Positions 20,322 to 46,179 of a DNA stretch of 64,000 nucleotides are shown in pieces. The DNA is from Vibrio splendidus (GTDB taxonomy: Bacteria; Pseudomonadota; Gammaproteobacteria; Enterobacterales; Vibrionaceae): positions 2,170,001-2,234,000 of the forward strand of contig NZ_AP025508.1 of assembly GCF_024347615.1 (NCBI RefSeq), in the 5' to 3' direction. Position 1 is the stretch's first letter. Each line of letters begins with the position of its first letter. Below the pieces are notes generated by a model. That model was not told the origin of the DNA. It saw nothing but the letters and a program-made list of their open reading frames with translations, and searched no databases. Position numbers and translations under genes: made by a program.

Positions 20322-20325
20322 TAGC

Positions 20326-20994
20326 ATGTTCAATGTAGTTAGAAATGAACCCAGCCCTGCTTCGTTAACTGTTAAACGAAGATACGATTCAGAAGATGTC
20401 TGGAGTGCATTAAATAAGGTATTCCACAAGAAATGCTACATCTGCGAAACTAGTGAACCTCTAGAAATTAATGTTGAACACTTCGTGCCACATAGGGGAG
20501 ATGAAGACTTAAAATTTGATTGGAGTAACTTGTACTTCTCGTGTGGTCGTTGCAACAACATCAAACTTGCTAAGTATGATGACCTTCTCGACTGTTGTGA
20601 CCCAGAAATAGATGTTGTTCGGGCAGTGAAGCATTTACCACCATCAACTCCACGTGCTAAACACCTTGAAATTGAAGCTCAACATCAAGATGATACAACT
20701 AAGCTAACAGCTGAACTCCTAAATAAAGTCTTTAATAGTGATCACACACCCAACAAAGCGGTTACGGGTGCATCCTTAAGAAAGAGCGTGTTTTCTCAAT
20801 ACAATCTATTGTTACAGCAATTGAACGTTTTCTACGACCCAATAGCATTACCCCAAGAAAAAGATATTGCCGTAGAGCGGATAAAGCTACTTCTTAAAGC
20901 GACCTCTCCCTACAGTGCATTTATAAGTTGGTGCATTATGGAAGATGAAGAGCTAGCTCCGATGCTTCATGATTTTATTGGTGTAGCTGAATAG
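20326..20994 (+). CDS. ptuB: HNH endonuclease (PtuB-like)
   Basis: The 222-residue product has an N-terminal zinc-knuckle HNH domain. CYICE (about 38-42) and NVEHFVPHRG (His of the HNH) are followed by NLYFSCGRCNNIK (second CxxC with the Asn) and LLDCCDPE. The C-terminal half is helical. This matches PtuB, the DNA-cutting subunit of Septu. It begins 5 bases after the ATPase gene, so the two are co-expressed. A similar pair is the effector of some retrons, but no reverse transcriptase is nearby. Confidence 0.85.
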   Translation: MFNVVRNEPSPASLTVKRRYDSEDVWSALNKVFHKKCYICETSEPLEINVEHFVPHRGDEDLKFDWSNLYFSCGRCNNIKLAKYDDLLDCCDPEIDVVRAVKHLPPSTPRAKHLEIEAQHQDDTTKLTAELLNKVFNSDHTPNKAVTGASLRKSVFSQYNLLLQQLNVFYDPIALPQEKDIAVERIKLLLKATSPYSAFISWCIMEDEELAPMLHDFIGVAE

Positions 20995-21071: not shown

Positions 21072-23075
21072 TTAATTTGTTGATATTTTTTTGATCTGCG
21101 CCGTGATCATATCGGGGTTAGATTCATCTTTTTCTTCAAATTTTCGGTTTAAAGATTTGATAATATGACCATATCTCAGCTTATAATCACCTATTATCTG
21201 ACTCCATTCTTTTACCCAAATTCGCATGTTTCCTGTTTTAAGAACTAATCCTGACTTACCATGGATTTTATTACTATCTAACTCAGTTCTAATGCTGAAA
21301 TTATTTTGCGAATTTTTTGATATTTGGTTTCCAACTAATACAAAATCCCAGTGGTCATTCTCAGTATCAAAATGCTCCTCAGATCTAATAACATTCATGT
21401 AGTTTTTTATCTGCTGAAGTTCTTTATCTGTTAATTTCACAGATGGTCTCTTTAGCTCAATTACAGTATTTTTGAAGTAAGAGTCGCCTTGTAAATACAT
21501 TGGAGACTTTTGAGATGCAAGTATGTCCATTTCTTTATTTTTGTGTTTATGAACGATTGAGTACTTATCAAAATGTTTAGTAGGGAATATTTCATTATCA
21601 ATATCATCCTCAATTTCAAGATCTTCATCTTTGAATTTCAGATACTTCCTTAAGGCTTTATCAAATTTCTCTTCTTCAGTAGTTAATACATTAAATTCTT
21701 CACCAAAAATCCACATATTTGATTCTACTATTTTCTGAATATGGGCGACCTCGTAGGTGTCATTCTTATTCGTTAATAGCTTTTCAAACATATCTAAGAC
21801 TTCCAGTCTGCCCTCCAACTGCTTAATGGTTTGCACTATGTTGGTCATCGTGACTTTTTCTAAGGTGTTGGACAACATATTCATGTCACTTTCTGACAAA
21901 GATATAACACCATTTAAAACTTCAAATAGACTATCAGGGTCATCAGAATTAACTATTCTATCTATTAATTTCACCAAAATAGCTTTTTGCTTTTTATTTG
22001 CTAGCTCAGTAAATACTGAAGAGTCTGCTTGATAAATCACTTTAATAGCATCTTTTAATTGTTGACTTTTAAATTTATTCAATGGGTTAATTGAGTTCGA
22101 ATTAGATATAATTCCATCTCGTTCATACTCTTCAATCAGCTCATCAATAGCACTTCTTTTTAACTCAAGGTATTTTGAATCAAGACTGTTTTTTGCTATT
22201 TTTTTTATTTTAGTGAACTTTTCAGAATTCGTATCAACATTATTAGTTAGTAGTCCATCCTGGTTAGCTACAAATTGAGAAAACCACTCTGATTTGACAA
22301 TGCAAGAACAGCTAAACGAGTTCCTAGATTTATAACTAGCTTTAGCAACTACGTTATTTTTCAAGTCACAAAAATAGATATGTGGTTTTTCAGTAAGTAT
22401 CTTACTCTCCCAAACTACAACATTAAAATTAACATTTTCACCTAACACATTCTCGTTAAGTTCTGAATCATCAATCATGGATGGAGAGTTTAAGTTATGA
22501 CTATTTACCTTAATTTTAACATTTGGTTTTAGCTTAGTTATCCAGCAAACATTCGTCTCCAAATAGCTAACAAAAACGTCATTAAATTCATTGAGAGTCA
22601 AGTTCAATTCATTGAACGTTACGTTGGTACCTGTCGGATATACAATGGATTCATCGTCAATTGGTTCGATAATAAACTTATCCAGGGAGCCATCTGTAAT
22701 TTGTATCTGAATCGTTTCATCATTGTTCTTATGTTTACTAATCCATGAGGCTTGACGGCAAAACTTGAAAAAGCTCAACCGACCACGACCATGCTTACCT
22801 CTAATCAATGGATCATCGGAGTGTTTTTTAGAAGAGTTTTCGAATTCATCAAACGGAGATATACCTCTATTCACCTCAATGCCAGAACCATTATCAGAAA
22901 TAGTTATATCTGTTACTTGCTCAAGCTCATGATTAACTCGAACATTAATCTCTACCTCAGTAGCTCCTGAATCCAACGAATTCCAAACATACTCAGCAAA
23001 CGCTTTCGCTTTATTCGTTTTCTTAAACTTCCCCCTAACACCATTGTTAGAAGCAGATAATTTTTTTTCTGTCAT
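21072..23075 (-). CDS. GHKL (MORC-like) ATPase fused to a PD-(D/E)xK nuclease domain
   Basis: From the ATG at 23075 the product has 667 residues. The N-terminus is an Hsp90-type GHKL ATPase: FAEYVWNSLDSGA gives the Glu/Asn of the N box, ISDNGSGIE the G1 box and GKHGRGRLSFF the G2 box. A transducer-like region and a helical middle follow. Near residue 520-560, KEMDILASQ and NTVIELKRP give the D...ExK pattern of restriction-type nucleases. MORC/MutL-like ATPases joined to restriction endonuclease folds have been described by Aravind and colleagues as restriction-linked proteins. The single-gene form next to Septu suggests a self-contained anti-phage protein. The defence role is inference. Confidence 0.8.
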   Translation of the reverse strand: MTEKKLSASNNGVRGKFKKTNKAKAFAEYVWNSLDSGATEVEINVRVNHELEQVTDITISDNGSGIEVNRGISPFDEFENSSKKHSDDPLIRGKHGRGRLSFFKFCRQASWISKHKNNDETIQIQITDGSLDKFIIEPIDDESIVYPTGTNVTFNELNLTLNEFNDVFVSYLETNVCWITKLKPNVKIKVNSHNLNSPSMIDDSELNENVLGENVNFNVVVWESKILTEKPHIYFCDLKNNVVAKASYKSRNSFSCSCIVKSEWFSQFVANQDGLLTNNVDTNSEKFTKIKKIAKNSLDSKYLELKRSAIDELIEEYERDGIISNSNSINPLNKFKSQQLKDAIKVIYQADSSVFTELANKKQKAILVKLIDRIVNSDDPDSLFEVLNGVISLSESDMNMLSNTLEKVTMTNIVQTIKQLEGRLEVLDMFEKLLTNKNDTYEVAHIQKIVESNMWIFGEEFNVLTTEEEKFDKALRKYLKFKDEDLEIEDDIDNEIFPTKHFDKYSIVHKHKNKEMDILASQKSPMYLQGDSYFKNTVIELKRPSVKLTDKELQQIKNYMNVIRSEEHFDTENDHWDFVLVGNQISKNSQNNFSIRTELDSNKIHGKSGLVLKTGNMRIWVKEWSQIIGDYKLRYGHIIKSLNRKFEEKDESNPDMITAQIKKISTN

Positions 23076-23534
23076 TTTTAAACTCGTCTGATTGAGCAAT
23101 GTAACTTGTTGTATTTTCGACTATTAAATTAAATTCGTCAAACTTTCATTCAACACTTTTAAACATACACTCCAAATAAATTTTGCAATTAAAACCTACA
23201 ACGTAAAACTTAACGGCCTTCGTACTAATTTTATAACCTAGACATGAAGCTATACGCAAAAGCCAACCGTAAATTAGAAGAAGATAAAAAAGCTCTGTAA
23301 CCAGACAGCAGGCGCTCTCTTTGAAATAGCTAAGAACCCATCATAAAAGCAAAGCTCCACCCAGTCCTATTTATAAATGCTAGGGCTTTTTAGTGCTCAA
23401 AAACCTGCTCAAAAACTCTTTATAAATACTTGTATATGAGAAATGCATCTTCTCATGCACCCCTGATTCCTACTAGTAAGCCGTGCTAGTGGTGCAAAAG
23501 TCGGCAATTCTAAATTTACAAAAGGCAAGACAAT
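23076..23534. other. Non-coding stretch before the first small-gene operon
   Basis: About 460 bases. It should contain divergent promoters for the GHKL gene and for the rightward operon. A micro-ORF of 18 codons starts at about 23243 but has little support. A short inverted repeat with a T run near 23380-23400 (CTAGGGCTTTTTAG) may stop transcription. Nothing else was recognised. Confidence 0.45.
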
Positions 23535-26656: not shown

Positions 26657-26781
26657 CATAACGCCCTGTCAAGGTGTGAGCAACGCAATACTGGAGTTCC
26701 CGCAAAACACCTTAAACACAAAACGCAACGCATGGCAAAAATGCCAAGCGTTGCGAATCACTCTTAAACAGATTGTTATGT
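26657..26781 (-). repeat. Integron attC site 2
   Basis: The site reads leftward from CATAACAATCTG to GGGCGTTATG. The internal arms GAGCAACGC (about 26681) and GCGTTGCGAA (about 26749) pair. It lies immediately 3' of the cassette gene at 26785 and closely matches attC 3. Strong VCR-like site. Confidence 0.9.
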
Positions 26782-26784
26782 TGC

Positions 26785-27255
26785 TTATCGTGTTACCTTC
26801 GTTTGCCACACTCTAATAGGTTCACCGGTAGAATGATCAACACTATCTAATGTCGAGTCACCAAACAATTTCTGAGCTACAGCTAAAGAGGCTTCGTTAG
26901 AAATATCGACACTAGTTTCAATGTAATATTCCTTGAGTTTTTGACCTTTTTTGAACTCTTCTAGAACTTTCTCAATATATGGAACTGTAACGCCCGTACC
27001 GCGGAGTTCTTCTAGTGTTCCATAGTAGAGAGAGAAACACGGTAAACCATTTAGCTCTTCTGTACCGTTGAATACAACAGTCTGGAGAACTTTAAGTTTG
27101 GCTAGACGAGCGTATGTATAACGGAAATAGCCGAGCGCTCTATCACGGACAAAGTATATGTCATCAGTAAAAGGAACTCGCTTCATGCGGAAGCCTTGTG
27201 AAAACGCCAACTCTAATGTTTTGAACCCTGTCATAGGGTTTTGTAATTCATTCAT
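26785..27255 (-). CDS. Hypothetical integron cassette protein
   Basis: A 156-residue soluble product with one gene per cassette. The ATG at 27255 follows GGTGAGTTGT. Sequence features: FRMKRVPFTDDIYFVRDRAL, then a basic YFRYTYARLAKLK, an alpha/beta body and a C-terminal VWQTKVTR. No family recognised. The stop lies 3 bases before the attC end, as usual for cassettes. Cassette products of Vibrio arrays often act in defence or toxin-antitoxin roles, but nothing here shows it. Confidence 0.75.
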   Translation of the reverse strand: MNELQNPMTGFKTLELAFSQGFRMKRVPFTDDIYFVRDRALGYFRYTYARLAKLKVLQTVVFNGTEELNGLPCFSLYYGTLEELRGTGVTVPYIEKVLEEFKKGQKLKEYYIETSVDISNEASLAVAQKLFGDSTLDSVDHSTGEPIRVWQTKVTR

Positions 27256-27410
27256 ACAACTCACCGATCAAAACGAGAAGCATATCATATAGTTGCACAT
27301 TAAGCCTTGTTTTATTTGTGGGAATTGAATTGCTACATAACGAATGACATGGATTCCCCCTACCGAGGATCTGCCACACTTATGTGGTACTTAAATGCAT
27401 CGGAGGCACC

Positions 27411-28436
27411 ATGTCTGATTATTCTTATTTCTGCGGTATCGACCTAGCTAAAAACCACTTTAGTCTTCATGCCGTAGACCAAAATGGTAAGGTCATACTT
27501 CATAAGTCGGTAACTCGCTCTAAACTACTGACTACAATAGCAAATATGCCACTCATGCGTATAGGCGTTGAAGCGTGTGGTGGTGCACATTATTGGGCAA
27601 GAACACTCAATAAACTCGGGCACGACGCCCGCATTATGGCTGTTAAATACGTAATTCCTTATCGAACTAAGGGAAAGAACGACCTTAATGATGCTGTTGC
27701 TATCTGCGAAGCTGTTCAGCGACCATCTACTCGCTTTGTGCCTGTAAAATCCCCCGAGCAACAAGCCATCTTATCGGTACATAGAATGAGAGAGCATTGG
27801 GTTCGTGAGCGCACCGCGCTTATGAATCGCATGCGTGCCCTACTTTCTGAGTTCGGGTTAACCATTCCTGTTGGCCGCTCTTCATTAATGAAACAGGTTC
27901 CCTTAATGCTGGAAGACGCAGAAAATGAACTACCACACCTCGCGAGAACAGTGATTGCCGATGCTTATCGCCACCTTGGTGAATTGAATCAACGTATCGC
28001 CGATACTGAACAAGTCTTCGATTCTTTTGCTAAGGTCAGCACTAATGTTCAACGAGTGATGAAAGTTCGGGGCATTGGACCGCAAACCGCTACTGCGATA
28101 CTTGCTTCGATAGGTAACGGCTCTCAATTTGATAAAAGCCGTGATTTCTCTGCTTGGCTAGGACTCGTACCAAAACAATATTCGACGGGAGGAAAGCCAC
28201 GCTTAGGTCGGATAACCAAACATGGCGATAAATACTTACGAACACTATTAGTTCATGGCGCAAGGACCGTAATTGCCAACCTTGGCGACAAGCAAGATAA
28301 GTTAAGTCAGTGGTGTCGAGGCGTTCTAGAACGAAGAGGAATGAACCGAGCGATAGTGGCACTTGCCGCGAAGAACGCACGAATTATATGGTCGCTTTTA
28401 CACAATCAAACAGAATACGAAAACTATGCTGCTTAA
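27411..28436 (+). CDS. IS110-family transposase (IS1111 group)
   Basis: The ATG at 27411 follows CGGAGGCACC. The 341-residue product has the RuvC-like N-terminal domain (FCGIDLAKNHFSLHAVD, then IGVEACGGAHYWARTL and the GKNDLNDAVAI motif) giving the DEDD residues. The C-terminal transposase_20 region (VRGIGPQTATAILASIG, DFSAWLGLVPKQYSTGGK, GDKYLRTLLVHGAR) holds the nucleophilic serine region. It appears intact. These enzymes work with an RNA guide encoded in the element. Confidence 0.95.
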   Translation: MSDYSYFCGIDLAKNHFSLHAVDQNGKVILHKSVTRSKLLTTIANMPLMRIGVEACGGAHYWARTLNKLGHDARIMAVKYVIPYRTKGKNDLNDAVAICEAVQRPSTRFVPVKSPEQQAILSVHRMREHWVRERTALMNRMRALLSEFGLTIPVGRSSLMKQVPLMLEDAENELPHLARTVIADAYRHLGELNQRIADTEQVFDSFAKVSTNVQRVMKVRGIGPQTATAILASIGNGSQFDKSRDFSAWLGLVPKQYSTGGKPRLGRITKHGDKYLRTLLVHGARTVIANLGDKQDKLSQWCRGVLERRGMNRAIVALAAKNARIIWSLLHNQTEYENYAA

Positions 28437-28701: not shown

Positions 28702-28820
28702 GCCCTGTTAAGGTGTGAGCAACGCAATACTGATGCCTCCGCATACCACCTTAACCACAAAACCTAACGCATAGTAAAAATGCCACGCGTTGCGAATCAT
28801 TCTTAAACAGTTTGTTAAAT
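28702..28820 (-). repeat. Integron attC site 3, split by the IS
   Basis: The body of the attC lies here; its outer core bases (CATAAC) are at 27336-27341 on the far side of the IS. The arms GAGCAACGC and GCGTTGCGAA match attC 2 nearly base for base. It lies directly 3' of the cassette gene at 28825. Confidence 0.88.
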
Positions 28821-28824
28821 TGCT

Positions 28825-29727
28825 TCAATCAAATTGTTGTGGAAGGTTGATTAAGCCTGTTTGAATAATAACTGTACTAATAGGTAATGCAGATAATTTA
28901 AAGTTCAATAGGCGGGGTTCGTTAATTCTGTTTACTTTCGTCGCATTATAACTCGAGTCATCAAGCAACAGATCCCAGCAAACTTTACACCATTCCGAGT
29001 ATTTGGGGTGTTTTGTATCATAAAACTGTTGCCCAGTATCACCAGATAAAAAATCTAATAAAGCCTTTGACAATGGGTTATCTATTTTCAGAGAACCACT
29101 CGCTTGGGCGATATTGAAAGAAGTATTATTTTTGAAGCCATTAATTTGATGCGTGCCATACTGCTTTAAGTTTCCGTGAAGCAATAGGTATTGTGCACCA
29201 TCAAACGCCTTTTTAGGTGTAACATCCCGACCCACGATTTTCTGAGGTCTTGCATAATCAAATTTCGGCCATTTTTCATATAAGTGCAACTGGTGCTGAT
29301 CACCTTTACCAACATTAGTCGTGTCACCTTTTGCGCTCGATACCTTTGCCTGTAACAACAAAGAGTTCATGTAAACAGAGAGATTGTTATCATAATGCAT
29401 ATGCACTACAAACAAATCACCTAATTCAGGGTTCTTTGGAGCGCCGTTCCAAGTAACTATCGGACGTTGATGACAAAAATGCCCTTGAATTTGAGCCGTA
29501 ACCCCTGTTTGGTTCAAGTAAAAATTTAATACACGCTGTATTTCAGGTAGCGAATATTGAAACAAGCTTGAGACAATCGCTGGCTCATCGAGCTTCTGAT
29601 AGCTCTTTACTGAGCCATACAGCGTTGAACGGTGCCCTAGCCCAACTCCGTCTATAAGAGCAAATTCAATATCTGGTTGAATAGCTATCCTAGTGTTCTG
29701 TAGATTTGATTTTATTGGGCTAGACAT
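28825..29727 (-). CDS. Hypothetical integron cassette protein, nuclease-like pattern
   Basis: The 300-residue product fills its cassette. In the middle, ELGDLFVVHMHYDN and SLLLQAKVSSAKG give a D...QxK strand pattern reminiscent of PD-(D/E)xK-type folds, though the catalytic Glu is Gln. A WCKVCWDLLLDD segment lies near the C-terminus. The start ATG 29727 has only a weak ribosome binding site (AGGAGTAAAAATG lies close, AGGAG 5 bases upstream, which is good). No named family is known to me. A role in DNA defence is a guess from the fold hint and the setting. Confidence 0.7.
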   Translation of the reverse strand: MSSPIKSNLQNTRIAIQPDIEFALIDGVGLGHRSTLYGSVKSYQKLDEPAIVSSLFQYSLPEIQRVLNFYLNQTGVTAQIQGHFCHQRPIVTWNGAPKNPELGDLFVVHMHYDNNLSVYMNSLLLQAKVSSAKGDTTNVGKGDQHQLHLYEKWPKFDYARPQKIVGRDVTPKKAFDGAQYLLLHGNLKQYGTHQINGFKNNTSFNIAQASGSLKIDNPLSKALLDFLSGDTGQQFYDTKHPKYSEWCKVCWDLLLDDSSYNATKVNRINEPRLLNFKLSALPISTVIIQTGLINLPQQFD

Positions 29728-33639: not shown

Positions 33640-34176
33640 TTATTTTGCTCTTTGTACTGTTGATACGCCAACGCCTAGTCTCTTAGCTGTTTTGCGAATC
33701 GATAGCCCACTAGAAAGGCAATCAAGTATTGCTTGCTGATCTACTGTCGCAGCGCGCCCCTTGTACTTCCCTGCTGCTTTAGCTTTCGCTATCCCCTCAG
33801 CTTGTCTTTCAAGCAGCATTTGACGCTCAAACTGATATACAGATCCTAGCAAGTTAAGCAACAACTCATTCATTGGGTTACTTTTGTCGGCACTAAAGAT
33901 CATGTTCTCTTTGATAAATTGAACTGCAACCGATTTAGAGTTAAAGAACTCGACCAATGCAAGCAAGTCTTTCATATCACGAGCAAGGCGAGATATGTCA
34001 TGAACAACCAAAGTGTCGCCTTCGCGGACATACTCTTTCAATCTACGAAGTTCTTCTCTGTCCGTTGTCGAACCACTGCATTTTTCAACAAACACTTTAT
34101 CAATTTCAATACCATCAAGCTGTCTAACCGTGTTCTGCTGCACTGTAGAAACTCGAATGTAACCAACTATGCTCAT
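33640..34176 (-). CDS. Serine resolvase/invertase
   Basis: The 178-residue product is full length for the Tn3/Hin type. The catalytic Ser10 lies in YIRVSTVQQ. DTLVVHDISRLARD carries the active-site Arg residues, and FIKENMIFSADKS and LLGSVYQFERQMLLERQ belong to the dimer helix. The C-terminal helix-turn-helix is RKTAKRLGVGVSTVQRA. AAGGTGGTAT precedes the ATG. Repeats resembling a res site lie directly upstream. It probably resolves multimers of the element rather than integrating it. Confidence 0.93.
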   Translation of the reverse strand: MSIVGYIRVSTVQQNTVRQLDGIEIDKVFVEKCSGSTTDREELRRLKEYVREGDTLVVHDISRLARDMKDLLALVEFFNSKSVAVQFIKENMIFSADKSNPMNELLLNLLGSVYQFERQMLLERQAEGIAKAKAAGKYKGRAATVDQQAILDCLSSGLSIRKTAKRLGVGVSTVQRAK

Positions 34177-36521: not shown

Positions 36522-38114
36522 TCATTCTGTAAGTAACGGCTGTAGTCTTCGATTAACTGCCATATCATTGTCGACAAATCGTACAGCACCGCCCTTTCCG
36601 ACTTTAAACTCAAACTGCTCATCAGTAACAAATGTCATCGTAATTAATGGCTCAGATTTTAAATCATGCCCCCGTAACTGAATCACAATGCTCTTACAAA
36701 CGCTGTTAATTAGAGTTCTACACTTCAACCTAGCTTCTTTATTATCAGCTCGTGCTTTGTCAGCTAATTCGATAAGTTTTTCTACCCATTTTTGAACGTC
36801 ACTTTGATTAACATCTGGCTTTTGTGAGTCACGTTCTTTAATCAGCTTCTGTTTTTCTGAGTTCAGTCTATCGTGAGAGTCTTTAAACAAGTGCCAAGGC
36901 GCACCTGCTGTAACCTGCTCGACAATATGTTTAACTTTGTTTTCTACTTCTTCGATTAAAGCAGAGTAGTTAACATTGTTAACTGTAGGCACTAAAGACT
37001 GAGGCTCAACTCCGATACAAGCAGCAAACAATACTGCATTCTCTATTGGTTCTAGAAACACAGACGAACAACAAGAGCTTGTTTCTTTGTGTGTTAAACA
37101 ATGTAATCGTGTAACAGTTTTACTGTATTCGCCAGAACGCTTGTATTGCTTTTGTGTCTGAGCACCTAGACCACCTCCGCAATAGCCGCAAGTCGTAAAC
37201 CCTTTGCCATGACCAGTAATCAAATGAACAGTTTCACCACGCCCATGCATGGACTTACTTCGTTTAGTTCGATGCTGTTGTAGTGCTAACCACTTTGATT
37301 TTGTAATCAACGCGGGATAGAAATCTTCAAGATCGTAGTCAACACCTTGAACGTTGATTCTCTTCATTCCATATAGAGCATGAGACTTAACGATATTTGC
37401 AACTGTTGTCTGTCCCCAAGCATTACGCTTGCCTGATAGTGTCGGTATGCTTTCTTCTGTCAGTTGTCTAGCTATCTTTAGAGAGCCAAAACCCTGATTG
37501 TATAGACCAAGAATTTGACGAATCACTTCTATACGTTCATTAAACGAGTACGTACCATCATCTTTGTTAAAATCAAGCCAACTAGGATCAGCGCCTAGTC
37601 GCCGAACCTTCCCATTTGTTTGATATTGATTTAACGCACTCTTTAAGAAAGCATTCGAGCGACGCTGTTTAGTTTCAGACTCTTCGTTTGCCCGAATCAT
37701 CACAACTAAAGACATGATTAGCTTAAAAGGGTTTTGTTGAATCTCTTCCCGAGAATAGACTTGATTATCTGCGGCAGTTACAACAGTAATACCAGACAGA
37801 ATCAAGTCACTTAATGCTGATTGAGCTATTAACGGATCTTCTCGACTAAGACGATCTAGTGATTCAACGACTAATACAGAGCCAGATTTAACCTTGCCTG
37901 CTGTTACCGCTGCTAAAAATTGCCCGAAAGCACCTTTTGTTTTATGCACACCATGAAACGCACTGAGCCCCTTATCCATCATGGTTAAGCTTTTATCTAG
38001 CTCAAATCCATGCTCAAGCGCGTATTGTTCAGCAAAATGTGACTGACGTTCGATTGATGTGCCCTTAGCCTGTTCTGGGCGGCTAAATCGCATATAACTG
38101 TATACTTTTCTCAT
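36522..38114 (-). CDS. Large serine recombinase (integrase of unit A)
   Basis: The 530-residue product has an N-terminal resolvase domain with catalytic Ser11 (YSYMRFSRPEQA). LVVESLDRLSRED carries the active-site Arg. A recombinase domain follows (LGADPSWLDF, ERIEVIRQILGLYNQGFGSLKIARQL). A zinc-ribbon-like CGYCGGGLG leads into a long coiled coil. Large serine integrases join attP and attB in one direction. The gene starts 41 bases from the attR junction at 38155, the usual place for an integrase, so it is the likely enzyme that inserted unit A into the carboxypeptidase gene. Confidence 0.93.
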   Translation of the reverse strand: MRKVYSYMRFSRPEQAKGTSIERQSHFAEQYALEHGFELDKSLTMMDKGLSAFHGVHKTKGAFGQFLAAVTAGKVKSGSVLVVESLDRLSREDPLIAQSALSDLILSGITVVTAADNQVYSREEIQQNPFKLIMSLVVMIRANEESETKQRRSNAFLKSALNQYQTNGKVRRLGADPSWLDFNKDDGTYSFNERIEVIRQILGLYNQGFGSLKIARQLTEESIPTLSGKRNAWGQTTVANIVKSHALYGMKRINVQGVDYDLEDFYPALITKSKWLALQQHRTKRSKSMHGRGETVHLITGHGKGFTTCGYCGGGLGAQTQKQYKRSGEYSKTVTRLHCLTHKETSSCCSSVFLEPIENAVLFAACIGVEPQSLVPTVNNVNYSALIEEVENKVKHIVEQVTAGAPWHLFKDSHDRLNSEKQKLIKERDSQKPDVNQSDVQKWVEKLIELADKARADNKEARLKCRTLINSVCKSIVIQLRGHDLKSEPLITMTFVTDEQFEFKVGKGGAVRFVDNDMAVNRRLQPLLTE

Positions 38115-38149: not shown

Positions 38150-38175
38150 TACATTAGACAGACGGCGCATTCGGT
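38150..38175 (+). other. Attachment junction between unit A and unit B
   Basis: Element sequence ends and carboxypeptidase coding sequence resumes at TTAGACAGACGGCGCATTCG. The core GAC-N-GA is shared with attL at 18643 and the junction at 45868. Confidence 0.75.
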
Positions 38176-38418
38176 TACTTCCCATCTTACACACTAGGTG
38201 CGATGTACGCGGCTCAGTTCATGGCTTCAATGAAGAAAACAGTGGATGTGAACGCTGTGATTGAAAGTGGCGACCTATCACCTATCTTCACTTGGTTAGA
38301 ATCGAATATTTGGAGTAAAGGCAGCCTGCTTAACACCGATGACTTGGTGAAAGGCGCAACCGGTGAAACCTTGAATGCGCAATACTTCAAAGATCATTTG
38401 AGAAGTCGTTACCTTTAA
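38156..38418 (+). pseudogene. Displaced 3' end of the M32 carboxypeptidase gene (copy 2)
   Basis: This fragment encodes the last 86 or so residues of the carboxypeptidase in frame (DGAFGYFPSYTLGAMYAA to the end RSRYL) without a start region. It differs from copy 3 (45868-46129) only near its two ends and is identical over about 190 bases in the middle. It differs much more from the copy now fused to the live gene (18700-18963). It is a remnant of earlier integration. Confidence 0.92.
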
Positions 38419-38477
38419 TAAAACATCAAATTAGATATAGAGCAGCACAAGAAAGTGCTGCTCTTTGCTACTTTCGA

Positions 38478-39320
38478 TTAGAACAACCACCTACTAACTT
38501 CGTCATAGTTTTCTAGGTACAAAGGCCGTATCGTAGGATCATCTGATTCTGATCGTTCATGCTTATCAATAAGGTGAAATTGTAAGTAGTACTCGGCCAT
38601 AGCTGCTCGTATACTTACCTCATAGAAGTCCCCTTCTCCCTTATCCATCATAATCACACGTTTCTGTTCAACAGTTAGCGCTGGTTGAGGAGAAATTCTC
38701 AAAGTGATTGTCTGCATCCAACAGTCGTCATCCTTGGCAGTCCAAGACGAGTTTCCAGCAATAGCTACATCCTTCATACGACTTACATTGAAATCTCTAA
38801 ATTCTTTCCTGTACTCATCGTAAGCTCGGCAATGCCACCTGAGTCCACTGTTTGCCATTGCAATTGGATGTAATCTTCTTTTCATTCCTTCTGGATGACT
38901 AAGAGAATAGTATGTCACTTGGATAGCGAGATTTTTTGCTATTGCCTGTGTAAGAATGCGACTTACTTGTGGGTCAACATGACTCGAAATCGCAGGCCCA
39001 AAATCAATGGTATTTTCACCCCATAGCGTTGAAGAGTAGCTAACGTTATTTAGTCTCAGGAACGCAGTATACTCCCCCCATGAACCGTCAATATACTGGA
39101 GATGAAACTCACTAGTTGGTTCGAATCTTTTCTCACTCTTATTGTAAGAAAGTGAGTCTGGATATTCTTTTCGATACTCTGCTAAGCTCTTAGTAATATT
39201 GTTTACTGTTACCTGAAACAACACTGCTAGCTTAGAGGCATTAACCATCCCTTCCCAATAAGCGAGTAATTCGATAACTCTAAAACGAGCTTCTTTTGTA
39301 CTAAGACCTCCTCCAATCAT
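38478..39320 (-). CDS. WYL-domain transcription regulator
   Basis: The 280-residue product has an N-terminal winged helix (RFRVIELLAYWEGMVNASKLAVLF), then a WYL domain with VTYYSLSHPEGMKRRLHPIA and SGLRWHCRAYDEYRKEFRDFNVSRM, and a C-terminal WCX-like part. WYL regulators often control defence islands and may sense nucleic acid. It overlaps the Toprim gene by 4 bases at the end of the SMC operon, and may control the operon promoter at 45777. Confidence 0.88.
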   Translation of the reverse strand: MIGGGLSTKEARFRVIELLAYWEGMVNASKLAVLFQVTVNNITKSLAEYRKEYPDSLSYNKSEKRFEPTSEFHLQYIDGSWGEYTAFLRLNNVSYSSTLWGENTIDFGPAISSHVDPQVSRILTQAIAKNLAIQVTYYSLSHPEGMKRRLHPIAMANSGLRWHCRAYDEYRKEFRDFNVSRMKDVAIAGNSSWTAKDDDCWMQTITLRISPQPALTVEQKRVIMMDKGEGDFYEVSIRAAMAEYYLQFHLIDKHERSESDDPTIRPLYLENYDEVSRWLF

Positions 39321-40189
39321 CGCTTAATCTCCAGATTCTCTATCACTTTTAATTGTGCTTTATGTACCACCAGGTGTTCTTGTGTAATTGCCAAACGTTC
39401 CAATTTCATTTTCATCAAGTGCTCTCTAACTACCTCTGGTGTGTGAGGATCCTTTAATCGCCTTAATAGCTGAGGCTGCTGCTTGTGGAATTCCTTAAGC
39501 TTACTCAACTTTAGTATTTCTGGAGATAAGCTTGTTGGTACTATTAGATCGATGGGTCTTACCTCTGCTACCTTTAGAGCCATATCAATACCTGCAGCAT
39601 CGTAGTCAAAGAAGATTGCAACTTTTGCTGAATTACCTAAACTATTAATCACTTCCATCACAATTGACTGGTTATCACCATGCCCTTTATAGATCATTAC
39701 CGCCTCCTTATATTCAGAAGGTATACGGTCGATGACTTCCTCCCAGTAAACCAAGGTTTCTCCGTTTTCTAAGATTATCAACTGCTTTATGCGTTCGACA
39801 TCCAGATGACCTTTTCTTACAGATACTACAGTACCAACGGGCGTTGATATTTCCTCGTTACCTACCAAGGGAATTGATGATGCGAGGCTAGACATATTTA
39901 TCATAGATTTAAATACGTCTCCTTTTGCCCATTTTTCATCAGGTACTGTTTTTGATGCATCCATTCGGTTATCAAACTCAAGAGATAGATCTATTACTGA
40001 TTTACCAAATATTTCATCAAGAAAGTTTTCCAGTTTTCTCAACTCATAAGAGCTTAAATGAATTTTGCCACTTCGATAATCGCCTATACCAACTTCATCA
40101 CAAATCTGTCTATAAGAAGGTTTGTCTGGAAGCTGTCTTTTTGATGACTTAACTATTTGGAGTGCAAGTTTAAAAACTTTCTTATTCAC
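39317..40189 (-). CDS. Toprim-domain protein, JetD/MksG-like
   Basis: GTG 40189 overlaps the previous stop by 8 bases and has AGGAAAAG upstream, so I prefer it to an ATG at 40249. The 290-residue product has an N-terminal helical DNA-binding-like part, then a Toprim domain: the acidic strand ILENGETLVYW and the DxD motif in IFFDYDAAGIDMA. In Wadjet (JetD) and MksG the Toprim subunit cuts DNA loaded by the SMC complex. At 290 residues it is shorter than typical JetD (roughly 380-400). Its setting with SMC, MukE-like and MukF-like genes supports the nuclease role. Confidence 0.8.
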   Translation of the reverse strand: MNKKVFKLALQIVKSSKRQLPDKPSYRQICDEVGIGDYRSGKIHLSSYELRKLENFLDEIFGKSVIDLSLEFDNRMDASKTVPDEKWAKGDVFKSMINMSSLASSIPLVGNEEISTPVGTVVSVRKGHLDVERIKQLIILENGETLVYWEEVIDRIPSEYKEAVMIYKGHGDNQSIVMEVINSLGNSAKVAIFFDYDAAGIDMALKVAEVRPIDLIVPTSLSPEILKLSKLKEFHKQQPQLLRRLKDPHTPEVVREHLMKMKLERLAITQEHLVVHKAQLKVIENLEIKR

Positions 40190-41423
40190 GATTACTTTTC
40201 CTGAAAACCATATCCTTGATATACAAAGTACCGTCAAAAGGCTGAACAATATCTCTGACTTCTTCGACAGTTACATATCTGGAAATTGATTTTTTCTGTG
40301 CTTCATAATAGCTCATCACCATGATCATCCAATCTTCAGGCAGAGCTTCAACACCGAGAACTCCATAAGCATTCATTGCTGAAATATCTTCTTTGTGGGA
40401 TGTGTCGGTAATAGCCTGAAATAGTAGCTCAACATTTTCTGTTAGAGGATCAAGAACATTTTCTAGAGTTCCTCCTCTTGCATCGGAGATTTTCTCTTCA
40501 ATTTCTTCTGGTTGCTCAATATTCGGCTCTGGTTGAACCTTTTCCAAAGTATCCAGTGCCATATCCATCAGGAGCTCTTCATCCCTTGCACTACTGATAT
40601 CAGCATATCCCCCCAAACGTTGTCTTTCAGCAAGAGAGGCGCAAGTTGGCAGCTCCATGATTCCTGATATATCGGGTCGATAGCCTGGTTGTTCTTTGAA
40701 CTTGCTCGAGAAGATATCAATCAGCATGTTAAGCCGACGAACTGCTTTATCTTTTTGCAGTTTTTCTACCATACTGTTTAGCTTGCGATTGGTCGCTGCT
40801 AAGTCTTTTAAACAACGATCAATATGAGCTTTAAAGACTTTCATTAGTAAACGTTCAAGCAGTAAATCAGTTCCAACCCACTCTCTTATCTTTACCACAC
40901 TTAAGTGGCTGATTGTCGTTCGGAGCTTATAGCACTCATCTTTGCAGCGGGTTGTCTGTCTTATACGTTCATCAATATCAGACACAACACTAAATTCATC
41001 AGAAACAATATGGTGATACATGCTTAACGCATCTGTAAGCATGTCCATTATTTCCATAACTATCTCTCTGATTTCATCAAAGTATTGCTCGTGAGTAGTA
41101 TGTGTCCTGACCTTCGATTTCTTGTAGCTCTCTATATTAAATTCTAAATCTTCAATAAGGCTGGAATATGCTCCAACTTTTTCTCTAAACCTATATCTGC
41201 TAGTAACATGATCTAACAAATTCCTAACTTTACTGTGAACCTGCACACCAAGGTTGTCATCTACATAGTAAGCTAATCGGTTCTTTTCTAAGGCTGTTAT
41301 TGCAGATTCATTTTCAGGTGTGTCCTCAATTTGACCAGCAGTGACATAGCAGCTTTCATCAACTACTTCTATATGCTTACTTAGTGCACGAATCGCTGAT
41401 TTAGAATCTTCTTTACGCCCCAT
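40182..41423 (-). CDS. Kleisin/MukF-like subunit (JetA-like)
   Basis: The 413-residue helical product has an N-terminal winged-helix-like part (SKHIEVVDESCYVTAGQI, ALEKNRLAYYVDD), a middle helical bundle (FREKVGAYSSLIEDLEFNIESYK) and an acidic linker (EQPEEIEEKISD) before a C-terminal winged helix (YVTVEEVRDIVQPFDGTLYI). That plan is that of kleisins MukF/MksF/JetA, which bridge the SMC heads. Its ATG shares one base with the stop of the MukE-like gene. The assignment is by size, fold hints and operon, not by clear sequence identity. Confidence 0.65.
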   Translation of the reverse strand: MGRKEDSKSAIRALSKHIEVVDESCYVTAGQIEDTPENESAITALEKNRLAYYVDDNLGVQVHSKVRNLLDHVTSRYRFREKVGAYSSLIEDLEFNIESYKKSKVRTHTTHEQYFDEIREIVMEIMDMLTDALSMYHHIVSDEFSVVSDIDERIRQTTRCKDECYKLRTTISHLSVVKIREWVGTDLLLERLLMKVFKAHIDRCLKDLAATNRKLNSMVEKLQKDKAVRRLNMLIDIFSSKFKEQPGYRPDISGIMELPTCASLAERQRLGGYADISSARDEELLMDMALDTLEKVQPEPNIEQPEEIEEKISDARGGTLENVLDPLTENVELLFQAITDTSHKEDISAMNAYGVLGVEALPEDWMIMVMSYYEAQKKSISRYVTVEEVRDIVQPFDGTLYIKDMVFRKSNRE

Positions 41424-42055
41424 CAGAAGAGCTCCTGCTGAGGTTCTGGTTCATCATCTGGTAATTCGTAACCTTCAAATGAGTGGATAAATTCTAATTG
41501 ATCAAATAATAAAGACCATTTAGCTGTTGCTTTATACACTGCACCAGAACCACCAATCGATAGTAAATATCCATTTTCAGATAAATAAGTCAGAACAGAC
41601 CTCAGCTTGGTTTTTGTTTCAACAGACCTTGAAACTTTTCTAAATTTAGAAGCAATCTGGCTCAACAGTTCAGACATAGAGGAAGACTCTTCTATTGCAG
41701 ATAGTAGCTCTGACTCGGAGATTCTTGTACCTGCTTCTATTGGGCGAGATTCCGCATCTACATTTCTTACTAATCTAAGCCAATCTATCAACGGTTCTAG
41801 GTCGGTGAGCATATGAGAGAACTGTTTCGTCGCTTTTTTTCGTCTCTTTGGATCTTCCAATGTCTCATATGAACAATAATAACCTTTACTGTCTTTCGTC
41901 TTTCCAACTTGTCTGGAAACTCGATGCAGAAATGCATTAACTTCGGAACGATTTATAGAGTCCTGGAGGAATCGAAAAGCTTCGGGATAAGAAGCTTCAC
42001 ATATCACTTTTTCATCAAGCAGATATTCAACCGTAATTTCAAATCTGGTGCTCAT
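41423..42055 (-). CDS. MukE-like winged-helix subunit (JetB-like)
   Basis: The 210-residue product has helical N-terminal sequence (FRFLQDSINRSEVNAFLHRV) and a C-terminal winged helix (KTKLRSVLTYLSENGYLLSI, GAVYKATAKWSLLFDQLEFI), ending in an acidic tail. The size and winged helices fit KITE proteins MukE/MksE/JetB. It starts 2 bases after the SMC stop and its stop codon shares a base with the next start. Confidence 0.65.
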   Translation of the reverse strand: MSTRFEITVEYLLDEKVICEASYPEAFRFLQDSINRSEVNAFLHRVSRQVGKTKDSKGYYCSYETLEDPKRRKKATKQFSHMLTDLEPLIDWLRLVRNVDAESRPIEAGTRISESELLSAIEESSSMSELLSQIASKFRKVSRSVETKTKLRSVLTYLSENGYLLSIGGSGAVYKATAKWSLLFDQLEFIHSFEGYELPDDEPEPQQELF

Positions 42056-42057
42056 GA

Positions 42058-45000
42058 TTACTTGCCCTCTTTTTCAGGTAATAAAGGATTTTTCTTATCA
42101 CCTTTTATTGAAACATAACGTTTAATACCTAAGTTTTTGTCTACATAATTCTTGGTGGTAAAGTAGCGGAGTAATACAGGTGATGGGTTAGGCTGAGCAC
42201 AAAACAGCGAGATGTTATGTTCATCCATCAATTCGAATAGGATAATCACGTTTTCGTCTGAAATTTTACCAAGTTCATCTAATGGCCAATGTATCCTCAC
42301 ATTATTGTCTTTACATAAGTAACGTGTCATTCCGCAGAACACAACAATCACTGCCAAAGTAGATATACCTTCACTACTAAGCCCCTTAAGATCTGCATCG
42401 GTTCTTATATTTACAGGTCGACCATTTTCTCTCATCGAGATATCAATATCGACTAAAGACTCTATATCATTACTTATCTGACAACTACGTAAAGAGTCTG
42501 TCGTACTTTGGAATATTGTGACAAATTCTTTACTAGGAAGAACATTCCGTTCGTTTTCCACCCAGTTAGACCAGACTTCACTAAACGCCTTTAAATCTTT
42601 CCATATATCAAATTCATCGACTTTTGATACCAACTCTATATTAATGTCGCTTAGTGCTTCAAAGTGATTTGTTGTATTTATCTCTTCACCAAGTGTTGAG
42701 GAAATTGATCTCACTTTTCTATTTAATGTGTCCAATGAATGGTAGAAACGCACATATCGTTCACCTACAGTTTTGAGTGACTCTAGGGTGACTTCTCTGA
42801 TGTCGGGGATGGCTACCTCCAACAGACGTTTTACATCATCGACACCCTCAATTAAGAAATTTTCAGTGTAATTGGCGTGAATCGAACGACGACTTCTGTC
42901 TTGTTCCATGTTCTCCCACAAAACATAGATTTTATTTTTTGAACCTATACTTGTTAGCACCTCTCCCACTTTCTTTACTGCATCAGCGATGCTTCGACGC
43001 AATACTTTAATCCTATTAATGTTCTTTGTTAGTCGTTCAAGTAGCAGCTCTAAAGATAAATTATCTCTTATTTCGGATGATTCATGTGTAGCAGGGACTT
43101 TATCAAGTGCATCATTAACATCTGCATAGGCGTTATTTACACTCTTGAACTCCTTCTCTAACCGACCTAGCTTCGTTTTTTGTTCTTTGATCTTGGCCTC
43201 TAGTTCTTTCAATCGCTCTTGGTGATTTTTCTTTTTTTCGTCAAGCTGACTAGATAGGCGAGCAACTGATACTGAAAGTTCAGTTGCTTCTTTTTCATGC
43301 TTATTTATATGTACCCACAACGATTTTTCCCAGCTACGATAGTCGTTGATTAGCTGTGCGTAGCTTTTTATTAGTTCATATTCACTCTTAGACTTGACCG
43401 CCCTTTCTTTAGCTACTTGCTCAGTCAAAGGATCGATATCTTTATTTTTCAATACCGCCTCAAAGATCTTCTCGAGCTCTTTACGTTGATTATCCGCAGT
43501 ATCTTTAATGCCTGTAATTAATTGATCTTTCAGATCGATTTGCTCTTGAATTGCTGCTTCTACAACCGAAGCGTTGGCTTTCAAAGTTAGTATCCCTTGC
43601 CTGGCAGTTTCTTCTAACTTTTCAACATCACTATCCGTTTCATGATCATATGCTTTTAGCTCTAAAATACTCTGCTGAATACGTTTATCAATTTCCCAAA
43701 CCCTATTGGTTATGGTCTTCTCTATATCAATTTTTTTTGCTTTTATTGATAGACCTATCTCTTTTTTTTCAGTGTTCAATCTGTCTTCTTCTCTTCCCAG
43801 TTGAGATAGTTCCTTTTCGGACTGGGAGACCTGCTTGTTAAATTTTCCAAGTTCTGTTTTTATACGAGTTATATCTTCTTCATAATTAAGGATATCTTTT
43901 TTTAGAACTTCTCTTTGTTGCTTTAGCTGATTCTCAGACTTAGTAAACTCGTTCGGTTCAACAAGGTTGAGGTTTATTTCGAGTCCATACAGAGCTTGGG
44001 AACTTTCCCCACCGACTAATTGAGGGTTTAAATTCTTCTGGCTAAGGAGCTCAGGTCGAATCACTTTCCCTATTGTGTCTCTCCAAGCGTATTTCGTTTC
44101 ATTCAAAAATTCATGCAAACTATCAGGCTCAGGATTTAACTGCCTAGTTATTTTCTCTCTTTCTTTTTCCGTCTTACCCAGTGCTTTCTTTTTGAGTTCT
44201 AGTTCATCTAGTTTGCCGTCCTGAAGCTTTTTATCACTATCAAGTTGTCTTCGTTTCTCCGATATATCTTTAGCTTGCTTTACTAGTTGTTCTTCAATTT
44301 CATTAATCTGGTTTTCATATAAATTTATTTCTTTATTCTCGTCTTCAGAATACAACGAAGCCTCTGTTTTATCAGCGTAGAGCGCTTGAACATCATCATT
44401 AATACGTTGTTTTTCTGAGGTTCGACTTTTTAAAAATTCACGAATTTGCGCATGCATTTCGTCAGAGCAATCACTTTCCCTTTGCAGAGTAAGCCTCAAA
44501 TGCTTAGACATTGAGTTATCTAATGAGGATCGCTCTTCCTTTGCCTTGCTTAACTTATTCGTTGTATCTGTTTCCAGTTGACCAATTTTTTTTTGGTGGG
44601 CATCAGCCTGCTGTGATACCGCTTCTAATAAACCTGTGTAGTGGTTACTATCACTGCTCATTTTGGCTTCATAGCCAGACAATTCTTCATACTGGGATAT
44701 CTTGGTTGTAATGTTCTCCTTCCCGTCCCACCGTTCTCTTTCATCATATATCGTCTGAATTAGGCTATTTTTACCCTCTAGGTTATTAGACTCGTTGTTA
44801 TAACGTTCTCTTAATGCGGCTGTTTTACTTTTATAATCATCTTCCAGATCACCTGTTTGAATTTCCAAGTCTTTTATTAAAGCCTCTGTAGTACTCAGGT
44901 TTAATCCCACTTCAGAAGCAGCTTGGTCTAACTGTTTTTTATAGGCTAGCAATAACGACCATTGTTCTTTGAGTTCTACATCTTTATCCAAAGCGCCATG

Positions 45001-45759
45001 AAACGTAGCGCTATGCTTTTCAATCTCAACCAATACATTAAGGCTGTTGATATATTCTGCATCGTCCTTGTGGAAAGGCGCATCTCCGATATCTATCTGG
45101 TCAGATAAAAAGCTGTCTACCACCATCGTTTTAAATTGAGCAAGGAGCTTATCGTGTCTCAACATTACTGCTGTCAAAGAATCGATATGCTGCATCTGGG
45201 TGTCGTTTGTACAAAGTGAAAACTGGTAAGCAGTTGAGGATAATGATTGATGAGACTTACGTTTCTTTTGCAGGCGCTTTTTATCGTTTAGTAGAACTGC
45301 TCGGTAATCAATTGAACTTCCAATCTGATTACTTACATAAAAGTGTTTAGATACAACGTGTTTCAACCAATCATGCGCATCGTTAGTGCTGGCCAACTGA
45401 TCCATAAGATGTTGTTGAAACAAGCCACCTTCTGCACTGCAATCAACAAATCGATAAGCTACCGATTTCTTCGACTTATACATTACAACGCACTTGAGTT
45501 CATCCAAACGCTTATACTCAAAAATCAACATTGACCGCGCTGATGGTAACAAAAAATCAGCAAATGCTTTTTTCTCTCCAGCTCGATTTACCAGTGAGCT
45601 CGGTTCTTTACCATAGAAAAAAGGAATAAGGCTAAGCATGGTCGATTTACCAGCACCGTTTGTACCCATATTGTTTGTATGTCCAACACACTCAACTTCT
45701 GTGAATTTTCCTTTGAAGTAACTGTGGTGAAGGTAGATCTTCTGAAGTCCGCTTTCCAT
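42058..45759 (-). CDS. SMC/MukB-like ATPase (JetC/MksB-like)
   Basis: The 1233-residue product has Walker A GTNGAGKST at residues 32-40. About 1,000 residues of coiled coil follow, broken by a hinge-like region near the middle (EPDSLHEFLNETKYAW). The C-terminal head has the signature LSSEGIST and a Walker B-like VRIHWPLDELGKIS, then SLFCAQPN. This is the SMC/MukB plan; the E in DELG is the catalytic acid. SMC proteins of Wadjet recognise and extrude circular DNA. ATG 45759 is 18 bases after a -10 box; a TTG at 45771 is the alternative. It is the first gene of a five-gene operon with all genes touching. Confidence 0.88.
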   Translation of the reverse strand: MESGLQKIYLHHSYFKGKFTEVECVGHTNNMGTNGAGKSTMLSLIPFFYGKEPSSLVNRAGEKKAFADFLLPSARSMLIFEYKRLDELKCVVMYKSKKSVAYRFVDCSAEGGLFQQHLMDQLASTNDAHDWLKHVVSKHFYVSNQIGSSIDYRAVLLNDKKRLQKKRKSHQSLSSTAYQFSLCTNDTQMQHIDSLTAVMLRHDKLLAQFKTMVVDSFLSDQIDIGDAPFHKDDAEYINSLNVLVEIEKHSATFHGALDKDVELKEQWSLLLAYKKQLDQAASEVGLNLSTTEALIKDLEIQTGDLEDDYKSKTAALRERYNNESNNLEGKNSLIQTIYDERERWDGKENITTKISQYEELSGYEAKMSSDSNHYTGLLEAVSQQADAHQKKIGQLETDTTNKLSKAKEERSSLDNSMSKHLRLTLQRESDCSDEMHAQIREFLKSRTSEKQRINDDVQALYADKTEASLYSEDENKEINLYENQINEIEEQLVKQAKDISEKRRQLDSDKKLQDGKLDELELKKKALGKTEKEREKITRQLNPEPDSLHEFLNETKYAWRDTIGKVIRPELLSQKNLNPQLVGGESSQALYGLEINLNLVEPNEFTKSENQLKQQREVLKKDILNYEEDITRIKTELGKFNKQVSQSEKELSQLGREEDRLNTEKKEIGLSIKAKKIDIEKTITNRVWEIDKRIQQSILELKAYDHETDSDVEKLEETARQGILTLKANASVVEAAIQEQIDLKDQLITGIKDTADNQRKELEKIFEAVLKNKDIDPLTEQVAKERAVKSKSEYELIKSYAQLINDYRSWEKSLWVHINKHEKEATELSVSVARLSSQLDEKKKNHQERLKELEAKIKEQKTKLGRLEKEFKSVNNAYADVNDALDKVPATHESSEIRDNLSLELLLERLTKNINRIKVLRRSIADAVKKVGEVLTSIGSKNKIYVLWENMEQDRSRRSIHANYTENFLIEGVDDVKRLLEVAIPDIREVTLESLKTVGERYVRFYHSLDTLNRKVRSISSTLGEEINTTNHFEALSDINIELVSKVDEFDIWKDLKAFSEVWSNWVENERNVLPSKEFVTIFQSTTDSLRSCQISNDIESLVDIDISMRENGRPVNIRTDADLKGLSSEGISTLAVIVVFCGMTRYLCKDNNVRIHWPLDELGKISDENVIILFELMDEHNISLFCAQPNPSPVLLRYFTTKNYVDKNLGIKRYVSIKGDKKNPLLPEKEGK

Positions 45760-45776
45760 GTTTAAACTCAACTCAA

Positions 45777-45806
45777 ATTATACACACCAAATCAATGTAC
45801 ACCAAA
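45777..45806 (-). promoter_or_regulatory. Promoter of the SMC operon with repeated half-sites
   Basis: On the minus strand there is a TTGGTG -35 (45805-45800), a 17-base spacer and a perfect TATAAT -10 (45782-45777). Two direct repeats TTTGGTGTRYA (45806-45796 and 45791-45781) overlap the -35 and the spacer, a plausible operator for the WYL regulator. The leader is very short. Confidence 0.7.
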
Positions 45807-45861
45807 ACGATGTATATTGTGAGGTGTATTTTTGTACAGCAGTCGTTGACATTACCATTGC

Positions 45862-45885
45862 TAGCTGGACAGACGGCGCATTCGG
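45862..45885 (+). other. Right attachment junction (attR) of the accessory region
   Basis: CTGGACAGACGGCGCATTCG resumes the carboxypeptidase coding sequence. The core GAC-N-GA matches attL (18643) and the 38155 junction. Everything to the right is core chromosome. Confidence 0.78.
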
Positions 45886-46129
45886 TTGCTTCCCATCGTA
45901 CACACTAGGTGCGATATACGCGGCTCAGTTCATGGCTTCAATGAAGAAAACAGTGGATGTGAACGCTGTGATTGAAAGTGGCGACCTATCACCTATCTTC
46001 ACTTGGTTAGAATCGAATATTTGGAGTAAAGGCAGCCTGCTTAACACCGATGACTTGGTGAAAGGCGCAACCGGTGAAACCTTGAATGCGCAATACTTCA
46101 AAGACCACCTAAGAAGCCGTTACCTTTAA
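45868..46129 (+). pseudogene. Original 3' end of the M32 carboxypeptidase gene (copy 3)
   Basis: In-frame coding sequence for the last residues of the carboxypeptidase (DGAFGCFPSYTLGAIYAA to RSRYL), with no 5' part. Position next to core genes suggests this is the displaced native end. An open frame of 123 codons that joins it to upstream DNA is accidental. GCFPS instead of GYFPS suggests decay. Confidence 0.9.
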
Positions 46130-46179
46130 TGTTTTATTAAAGAGTTTTCGAACAAAGAAAACTAGGTAATAGACGAATA

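Follow-up and report, generated by a model that had tools for sequence, protein, structure and literature searches.

What does a compact run of five genes that couples an SMC-like ATPase to a Toprim nuclease do in Vibrio splendidus, and does it belong to a named Wadjet or MksBEFG system? The genes in question lie on the minus strand at positions 38478-45759 of a 64,000-nucleotide stretch of contig NZ_AP025508.1 (positions 2,170,001 to 2,234,000), referred to here as the window, to which all coordinates apply. Taken together, the evidence presented below indicates that this operon probably encodes a Wadjet-like nuclease that senses DNA shape, from a branch that seems to be unnamed, along with a regulator. 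An original prediction, made from the sequence, had described the genes as an SMC/MukE-like/MukF-like/Toprim/WYL run. Indeed, five unbroken, closely spaced open reading frames (ORFs) were identified, namely those encoding a JetC-like SMC ATPase (42058-45759; 1233 aa), a MukE/MksE/JetB-like KITE subunit (41423-42055; 210 aa), a MukF/JetA-like kleisin (40182-41423; 413 aa), a JetD/MksG-like Toprim nuclease (39317-40189; 290 aa) and a WYL-domain regulator (38478-39320; 280 aa). A gap of 2 nt separates the SMC and KITE genes, with the KITE/kleisin, kleisin/Toprim and Toprim/WYL junctions overlapping by 1, 8 and 4 nt, respectively. The ATG at 45759 was preferred as the SMC start over an upstream TTG at 45771, which would yield a 1237 aa protein, because the same start reads MESGLQ and METGLE in two related loci, L043 and L031, respectively. 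The Toprim start, a GTG at 40189, matches that of homologues P0017 and P0019.

The SMC protein matches Pfam DUF3584 (PF12128) over almost its full length, with a score of 485 bits, and the motifs listed in the original prediction are present, with Walker A (GTNGAGKST) at residue 36, LSSEG at residue 1131 and Walker B (WPLDELG) at residue 1162, in the numbering of the 1237-aa ORF. DUF3584 is also matched by the SMCs of relatives L045, L056 and L126 (1066 bits in the case of L126), and by none of the type I (L078, L106) and type II (L098) Wadjet references, E. coli MukB, L027 or L028. In four control genomes, matches to DUF3584 were obtained, none above the cut-off. No match of the window SMC to the MukB N-terminal domain (PF04310) was detected. 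The Toprim protein matches Pfam DUF7281 (129 bits) and combines an N-terminal winged helix with a Toprim domain, presenting a nuclease fold of the JetD/MksG type (JetD/MksG/TopoVI-A). It is also short, as had been claimed, at 290 aa relative to the 375-431 aa of the type I references. Judged by residue conservation, the ATPase and nuclease active sites are both complete: GK of Walker A and DE of Walker B are unchanged across the 21 SMCs compared, and E141, D195 and D197 across 31 Toprims. Searches of PDB sequences with the SMC and Toprim proteins and three profiles returned nothing significant. The regulator matches PF13280 (48 bits) and the PADLOC WYL model (62 bits). These DUF3584, DUF7281 and WYL scores, together with a gene order kept in relatives, place the observation beyond chance.

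The proposal that the 210- and 413-aa proteins are a KITE and a kleisin, respectively, also stood. The predicted model of the 413-aa protein shares the layout of MukF, with an N-terminal winged helix, a helical bundle, a linker and a C-terminal winged helix, and MukF tops both fold lists, albeit weakly. For the 210-aa protein, the Pfam MksE family is carried by 21 of 56 homologues, and PF21980 (MksE) scores above its cut-off in relatives L045 (28.7 bits) and L126 (27.8 bits); the same model also scores in E. coli and next to mukB in the host. In Pfam, the 413-aa protein returned sub-threshold matches to unrelated families only, and in PADLOC, the KITE and Toprim proteins weakly matched unrelated models and the kleisin matched nothing. 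The predicted kleisin is the weakest identification of the four core subunits.

The SMC-first order, deemed unusual in the original prediction, proved to be a trait of a separate clade, with the order SMC-KITE-kleisin-Toprim being found in every one of the 26 loci with a readable set of four core genes (the window; L018, L021, L022, L030, L031, L043, L045-L050 and L052-L056; the plasmid loci L102 and L103, where genes were assigned by position and alignment; and L122, L125, L127 and L129-L131). These 26 loci are not independent, with near copies existing within the groups window/L030/L043, L045-L050, L052/L053, L054/L055 and L122/L125. Outside this count are L017 and L128, where the order fits and KITE was not called; L019, L026 and L032, which reach contig ends; L020, where kleisin and Toprim genes occur without an adjacent SMC gene; L029, a DUF7281 fragment; and L044, L051 and L057, where the order is kept and the ORFs are broken, as in decayed copies. 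Also outside the count are five loci encoding shorter SMCs (L023, L024, L025, L027 and L028), of which L023 and L027 are ordered A-B-C-D, i.e., kleisin, KITE, SMC and Toprim, and L028 presents a different order again.

Comparison with models of named systems yielded no convincing PADLOC match of the window operon to Wadjet types I-III, with the SMC matching JetC2 at only 16 bits. Likewise, the five window proteins showed no match, up to an E-value of 1, to the JetA1-D1, DUF3375, DUF4194 or JetD_C models and no PADLOC match labelled as type III. In one relative, L022, weak matches to JetD3 (13.9 bits) and JetC1 (19 bits) were obtained; the reference SMCs of L104, L106 and L078 match JetC1 at more than 1500 bits, and that of L098 matches JetC2 at 1486 bits. 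Type III was compared via PADLOC models alone, with no type III locus in the tree described below; three candidate references (L104-L106), found as weak PDLC00591 matches in 185 genomes, were rejected, as L104 and L106 are JetC1 by PADLOC and L105 resembles L106. With NCBIfam, the window SMC gave no TIGR02680 match and the window proteins gave only sub-threshold matches, with no MksB, MksE or MksF model among them; Mks models were also matched by none of four L045 proteins, nor by the kleisin and Toprim of L056. The short-SMC locus L027 is Mks-like by NCBIfam, scoring 342, 79 and 160 bits, each under the equivalog cut-off. In this locus, the names of NF040857 and NF040859 look swapped, with 'MksF' matching the SMC and 'MksB' matching the kleisin.

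When SMC heads were placed in a tree, all 21 members of the clade grouped together (support 100/99) and joined the five short, MksB-like SMCs (100/99 for the join, 88/70 for the short group alone), both sets being separate from the type I, type II and MukB proteins. The outgroups comprised seven type I rows together with L099 and L100, one type II row and one MukB row; L099 and L100 were counted as type I relatives because L106, which resembles them, is classed as JetC1 by PADLOC. As the root was placed at the midpoint, and as the program flagged several long branches meeting, describing the short SMCs as sisters of the clade depends on rooting. The window SMC stands beside the short MksB-like group and not inside it, in a tree with long branches and without a P. 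aeruginosa sequence.

Set against individual systems, the window operon shares with Wadjet type I, or MksBEFG of Corynebacterium (JetABCD; DUF3375, DUF4194, JetC1 and DUF3322-DUF2220), a kleisin, a KITE, an SMC ATPase and a Toprim of JetD/MksG fold, with HHalign probabilities of 92% (E 6e-7) for the SMC profiles and 82% (E 1e-5) for the Toprims. By contrast, the type I order is A-B-C-D and that of the window C-B-A-D, the type I JetC proteins tested do not match DUF3584, and the type I SMC heads fall in a different clade. The type II system (TIGR02677-02680; JetABC of Neobacillus vireti, 9qe0/9qe1) differs in that 9qe0 is matched by its reference L098 (E 8e-73), whereas the window SMC has no PDB match and lies far from the single type II row in the tree. 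The closest likeness is to MksBEF of the P. aeruginosa type (NF040857-9), represented here by DUF7281-bearing loci such as L023, where DUF7281 passes at 37.8 bits (in L027, it scores 20.6 bits, under the cut-off of 27). Here, HHalign probabilities relative to the window family reach 99.8% for the SMC, 94.6% for the Toprim, 89.5% (E 2e-6) for the KITE and, for the kleisin, 13% rising to 29.7% with more sequences, although these short SMCs span 917-956 aa, as compared to about 1230 aa in the window. MukBEF resembles the operon in the MukF-like model of the kleisin; MukB, however, matches PF04310 and not DUF3584, E. coli mukFEB is ordered A-B-C without the nuclease gene that the window operon holds, and the host carries MukB separately. 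Finally, Lamassu and ABC-three-component systems also pair an SMC-like ATPase with an effector, yet no LmuA, LmuB or LmuC match was found among the window proteins, and a KITE and a kleisin are present.

By genes and folds, the window operon accordingly fits Wadjet in the broad sense of an SMC, a kleisin, a KITE and a JetD-type Toprim. Of the likeness to Wadjet first proposed, the sharing of the same four activities held, whereas the nearest relatives found are not Wadjet I or II but short MksBEF-like systems. The suggestion of a separate branch is borne out by the lack of a named Wadjet subtype in PADLOC or NCBIfam and by the SMC clade of its own; restriction is what we infer for it. The branch seems to be without a name so far. 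In the available portions of the literature, with subscription papers and bioRxiv largely outside coverage, nothing was found on this Wadjet/MksBEF branch, and the five papers found to name DUF3584, as far as their accessible parts go, have no evident SMC or defence-system topic. In mostly open-access literature, DUF7281 is mentioned nowhere.

The same core genes were also sought more widely. A diverse kleisin profile was positive in 22 of 398 genomes of the phylum, and 16 of these 22 neighbourhoods were read (13 new loci, L122-L134, together with the window, L022 and L048; G348, G752, G828, G884, G897 and G910 were left out). This revealed SMC, KITE and kleisin genes without a Toprim gene in the stretch in six of the 13 new loci (L123, L124, L126, L132, L133 and L134). 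L126 and L132 lie on chromosome-size contigs, and DUF7281 was matched nowhere in the genomes G139, which holds L134, and G348. Judging from gene content, the same core complex thus also appears to exist in a condensin-like, nuclease-free form. A single clade of nuclease-free SMCs, a group defined after the first tree had been seen, was rejected in an approximately unbiased (AU) test (p 8e-35), and the nuclease was therefore lost or gained more than once. The first tree with nuclease-free loci omitted seven near-copy rows of the clade (L043, L046-L049, L053 and L055), retained three of the five short rows and two of the seven type I rows, and had no L099, L100, type II or MukB row; the AU-test tree omitted L130, 16 of the 21 older clade rows and all outgroups. 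In one family, the kleisin was found in 71 of 147 genomes, with armed and unarmed forms pooled, and canonical SMC was present in all seven kleisin-positive genomes of that family that were tested. Among the 22 kleisin-positive genomes of the phylum, canonical SMC scored over the cut-off in 19 and MukB in two, both of the window's genus; G706 has neither over the cut-off. This last genome, of 100% completeness, carries an armed complex (L130).

Translational coupling of the WYL gene, as claimed in the original prediction, is consistent with the 4-nt overlap in the window; across the branch, however, only some sub-branches carry WYL, often divergently upstream. The WYL gene sits on the 3' side and reads in the same direction in the window, L030, L031, L032, L043 and L044, and is divergent and upstream in L045-L050, L056 and L057, as well as in the short-SMC locus L027; none was found near the remaining loci read. 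Immediately upstream of the SMC gene (45771-45850), four of the 48 TRTACA/TGTAYA hexamers in the 64 kb lie within 80 bp, the densest place for this motif, which was picked after the sequence had been inspected. Upstream of SMC, three such hexamers occur in L030, four in L043 and two each in L031 and L044, and none in the eight divergent WYL-SMC spacers listed. The WYL protein may have its operator in this cluster. Shuffled sequence contained sites resembling promoters and terminators just as often.

Examination of the surroundings revealed a feature on which the original prediction was silent, namely that the operon is a cassette flanked by two 263-bp direct copies of the 3' end of an M32 carboxypeptidase gene (38157-38419 on the WYL side and 45868-46130 on the SMC side, both on the plus strand), 97% identical to each other; the ORF containing the second copy matches PF02074 at 96 bits. 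The live M32 gene, at 17431-18963, ends in a third, divergent version of this 3' end (71-73%). Aliivibrio finisterrensis (L030) carries a cassette that matches that of the window at 96.6% identity across 7704 bp and likewise adjoins the M32 gene. When the window copies at 38157 and 45868 are compared with L030, identity of the M32 ends is 62-67%, as against 96% and 91% within each host. These comparisons indicate that the cassette is mobile and has moved between genera, and the M32 3' end appears to be a site of repeated insertion. Site-specific exchange involving M32 ends carried on the cassette was considered and fits poorly, as both ends follow the host in Vibrio and in Aliivibrio. Of 148 genomes in the genus, 142 contain M32 and 20 give more than one match, some of these being one gene read in two pieces. 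Since M32 was seen only in L030 and L043 among the 33 relative loci searched, the relatives lie at other sites. The operon itself is patchy in the genus, occurring in 16 of 196 genomes, one of these at E 8e-4. Members are also borne on plasmids (L102 and L103), the RefSeq records of which do not name the system. In the accessible, mostly open-access literature, nothing was found on M32 as an insertion hotspot.

Between the live M32 gene and the cassette lies an island with a complete Septu system (19077-20994; PtuA 472 bits, PtuB 282 bits), directly 3' of live M32, and, adjoining the M32 repeat, a 530-aa large serine recombinase (36522-38114). That the latter moves the cassette could not be shown, its homologue being absent from the 33 relative loci searched. 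Together with a small ORF that reads as resolvase-like (33640-34176), it is a possible integrase of this left island. Also present are a 675-aa protein that by appearance is a GHKL-type ATPase (21072-23099), with no PADLOC match, a possible extra defence gene, and an imperfect 124-bp direct repeat (26663-26786 and 28702-28825; 85%) around a transposase ORF (27384-28436) that reads as IS110-like. The live M32 gene holds a short in-frame duplication (GCMQDIHWTD ... GCLQDIHWTQ). Near relatives of the operon, PADLOC models for restriction-modification (RM) and PD-Lambda-1 were matched in a scan of 95 of 96 neighbouring proteins (the L030 M32 gene being left out), considering the best 25 of 193 matched PADLOC families. 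In Shewanella chilikensis (L031:11741-17259) and Catenovulum (L032:1963-7481), genes for a 363- or 344-aa protein, respectively, and for a 1476-aa protein come after the operon; in L031, the latter matches TmtA (1124 bits) and the 363-aa protein has no Pfam match. In L047, L050 and L057, a gene for a 954-973 aa protein stands beside the operon, and glycine dehydrogenase is matched by three of the 95 scanned proteins; a second insertion site is therefore suggested.

As to function, the operon would most likely restrict circular foreign DNA by the Wadjet mechanism that PMC10586767 describes. An SMC-kleisin-KITE motor, dimerised through the kleisin N-terminal domain, would load on DNA and extrude loops until two motors met on a small circular molecule, upon which the Toprim dimer would be released and cleave both strands. 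Plasmids and circular phage or element DNA would be removed in this manner, with the chromosome being spared. The WYL protein would probably repress the operon at the repeats upstream of SMC, repression being relieved by foreign DNA or DNA damage. Restriction of foreign DNA is favoured because of the conserved active sites, the patchiness, the broken copies, the transfer between genera, the carriage on plasmids and the defence neighbours. Several observations weigh against the assignment of a Wadjet-like nuclease. The window KITE scores 23.4 bits against PF21980, under the cut-off of 27, and a whole-genome MksE search returned the host MukE as sole match, without recovering the window KITE. 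Foldseek alone gave nothing for the Toprim under E 0.001, the best match being Spo11 (2.2e-3), with JetD absent among the best 50 matches listed. For the kleisin, the best Foldseek value is a weak 6.8e-3, and in the VIA list MukF ranks level with unrelated helical bundles (STAT, syntaxin and CtMrs2). All profile-profile comparisons of the kleisin with type I, type II, L099/L100-type and MukF references fell below 1%, in a test that is powerless since the control pair of type I and MukF fails too; the kleisin was therefore assigned by fold search and an Mks-like hidden Markov model. Furthermore, the plasmid-borne members mean that the system does not exclude every plasmid, the nuclease-free complexes mean that the SMC core need not serve defence, and housekeeping genes (glycine cleavage and serine hydroxymethyltransferase) also adjoin relatives. 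We know of no measured activity for any member of the branch.

Three other explanations were weighed. WYL regulators accompany many phage defence systems, and PADLOC labels place WYL with CRISPR-Cas; with islands shared with Septu and TmtA, RM and PD-Lambda-1 near relatives, and the operon occurring on plasmids, the system could be directed mainly at phages or mobile elements instead of plasmids, attacking phage DNA once it is injected or while it replicates and possibly working through abortive infection. This is considered unlikely, as the closest biochemically studied relatives, JetABCD and MksBEFG, act on plasmids according to the available parts of PMC10586767 and PMC10123090; that the Toprim was found in no phage record, and no relative in two viral-contig scans, is uninformative about targets. 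Still less probable is a chromosome-organising condensin in which the Toprim handles chromosomal topology. Although the six nuclease-free complexes in the same clade, the kleisin frequency and accompanying canonical SMC in the 147-genome family, and the link of P. aeruginosa MksBEF to chromosome segregation in what is accessible of PMC7485682 all speak for such a role, the window nuclease is intact, distribution in the genus is patchy, ORFs are broken in L044, L051 and L057, the cassette has moved between genera, and the host has MukB. A passenger or addiction-like module, mainly guarding its own mobile element against competitors at the same site, would account for a cassette that has an M32 3' end on either side, occupies a recurrent insertion site and neighbours another island. 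It is, however, highly improbable, given that no integrase-like or toxin-antitoxin-like ORF stands out in the ORF list between the M32 copies and that relatives lie elsewhere.

Restriction of foreign DNA by a Wadjet-like nuclease is hence retained for the window operon. For the family at large, a broader proposal is offered tentatively and with some doubt, namely that DUF3584 marks a separate MukBEF/MksBEF-like lineage that alternates between an armed form, which bears DUF7281, is often mobile and in part WYL-controlled, and would restrict foreign DNA, and a disarmed chromosomal condensin working beside Smc, with the nuclease having been lost or gained several times, such that condensin and DNA-defence machines may interconvert via one gene. 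As the clade holds armed and nuclease-free versions of the same SMC, KITE and kleisin, adding or removing a single gene would put this question to the test. The findings also hint at what DUF3584 and DUF7281, both Pfam families of unknown function, may stand for, in systems that PADLOC 2.0.0 does not call, and point to an SMC-nuclease that travels as a compact cassette and may be under WYL control.

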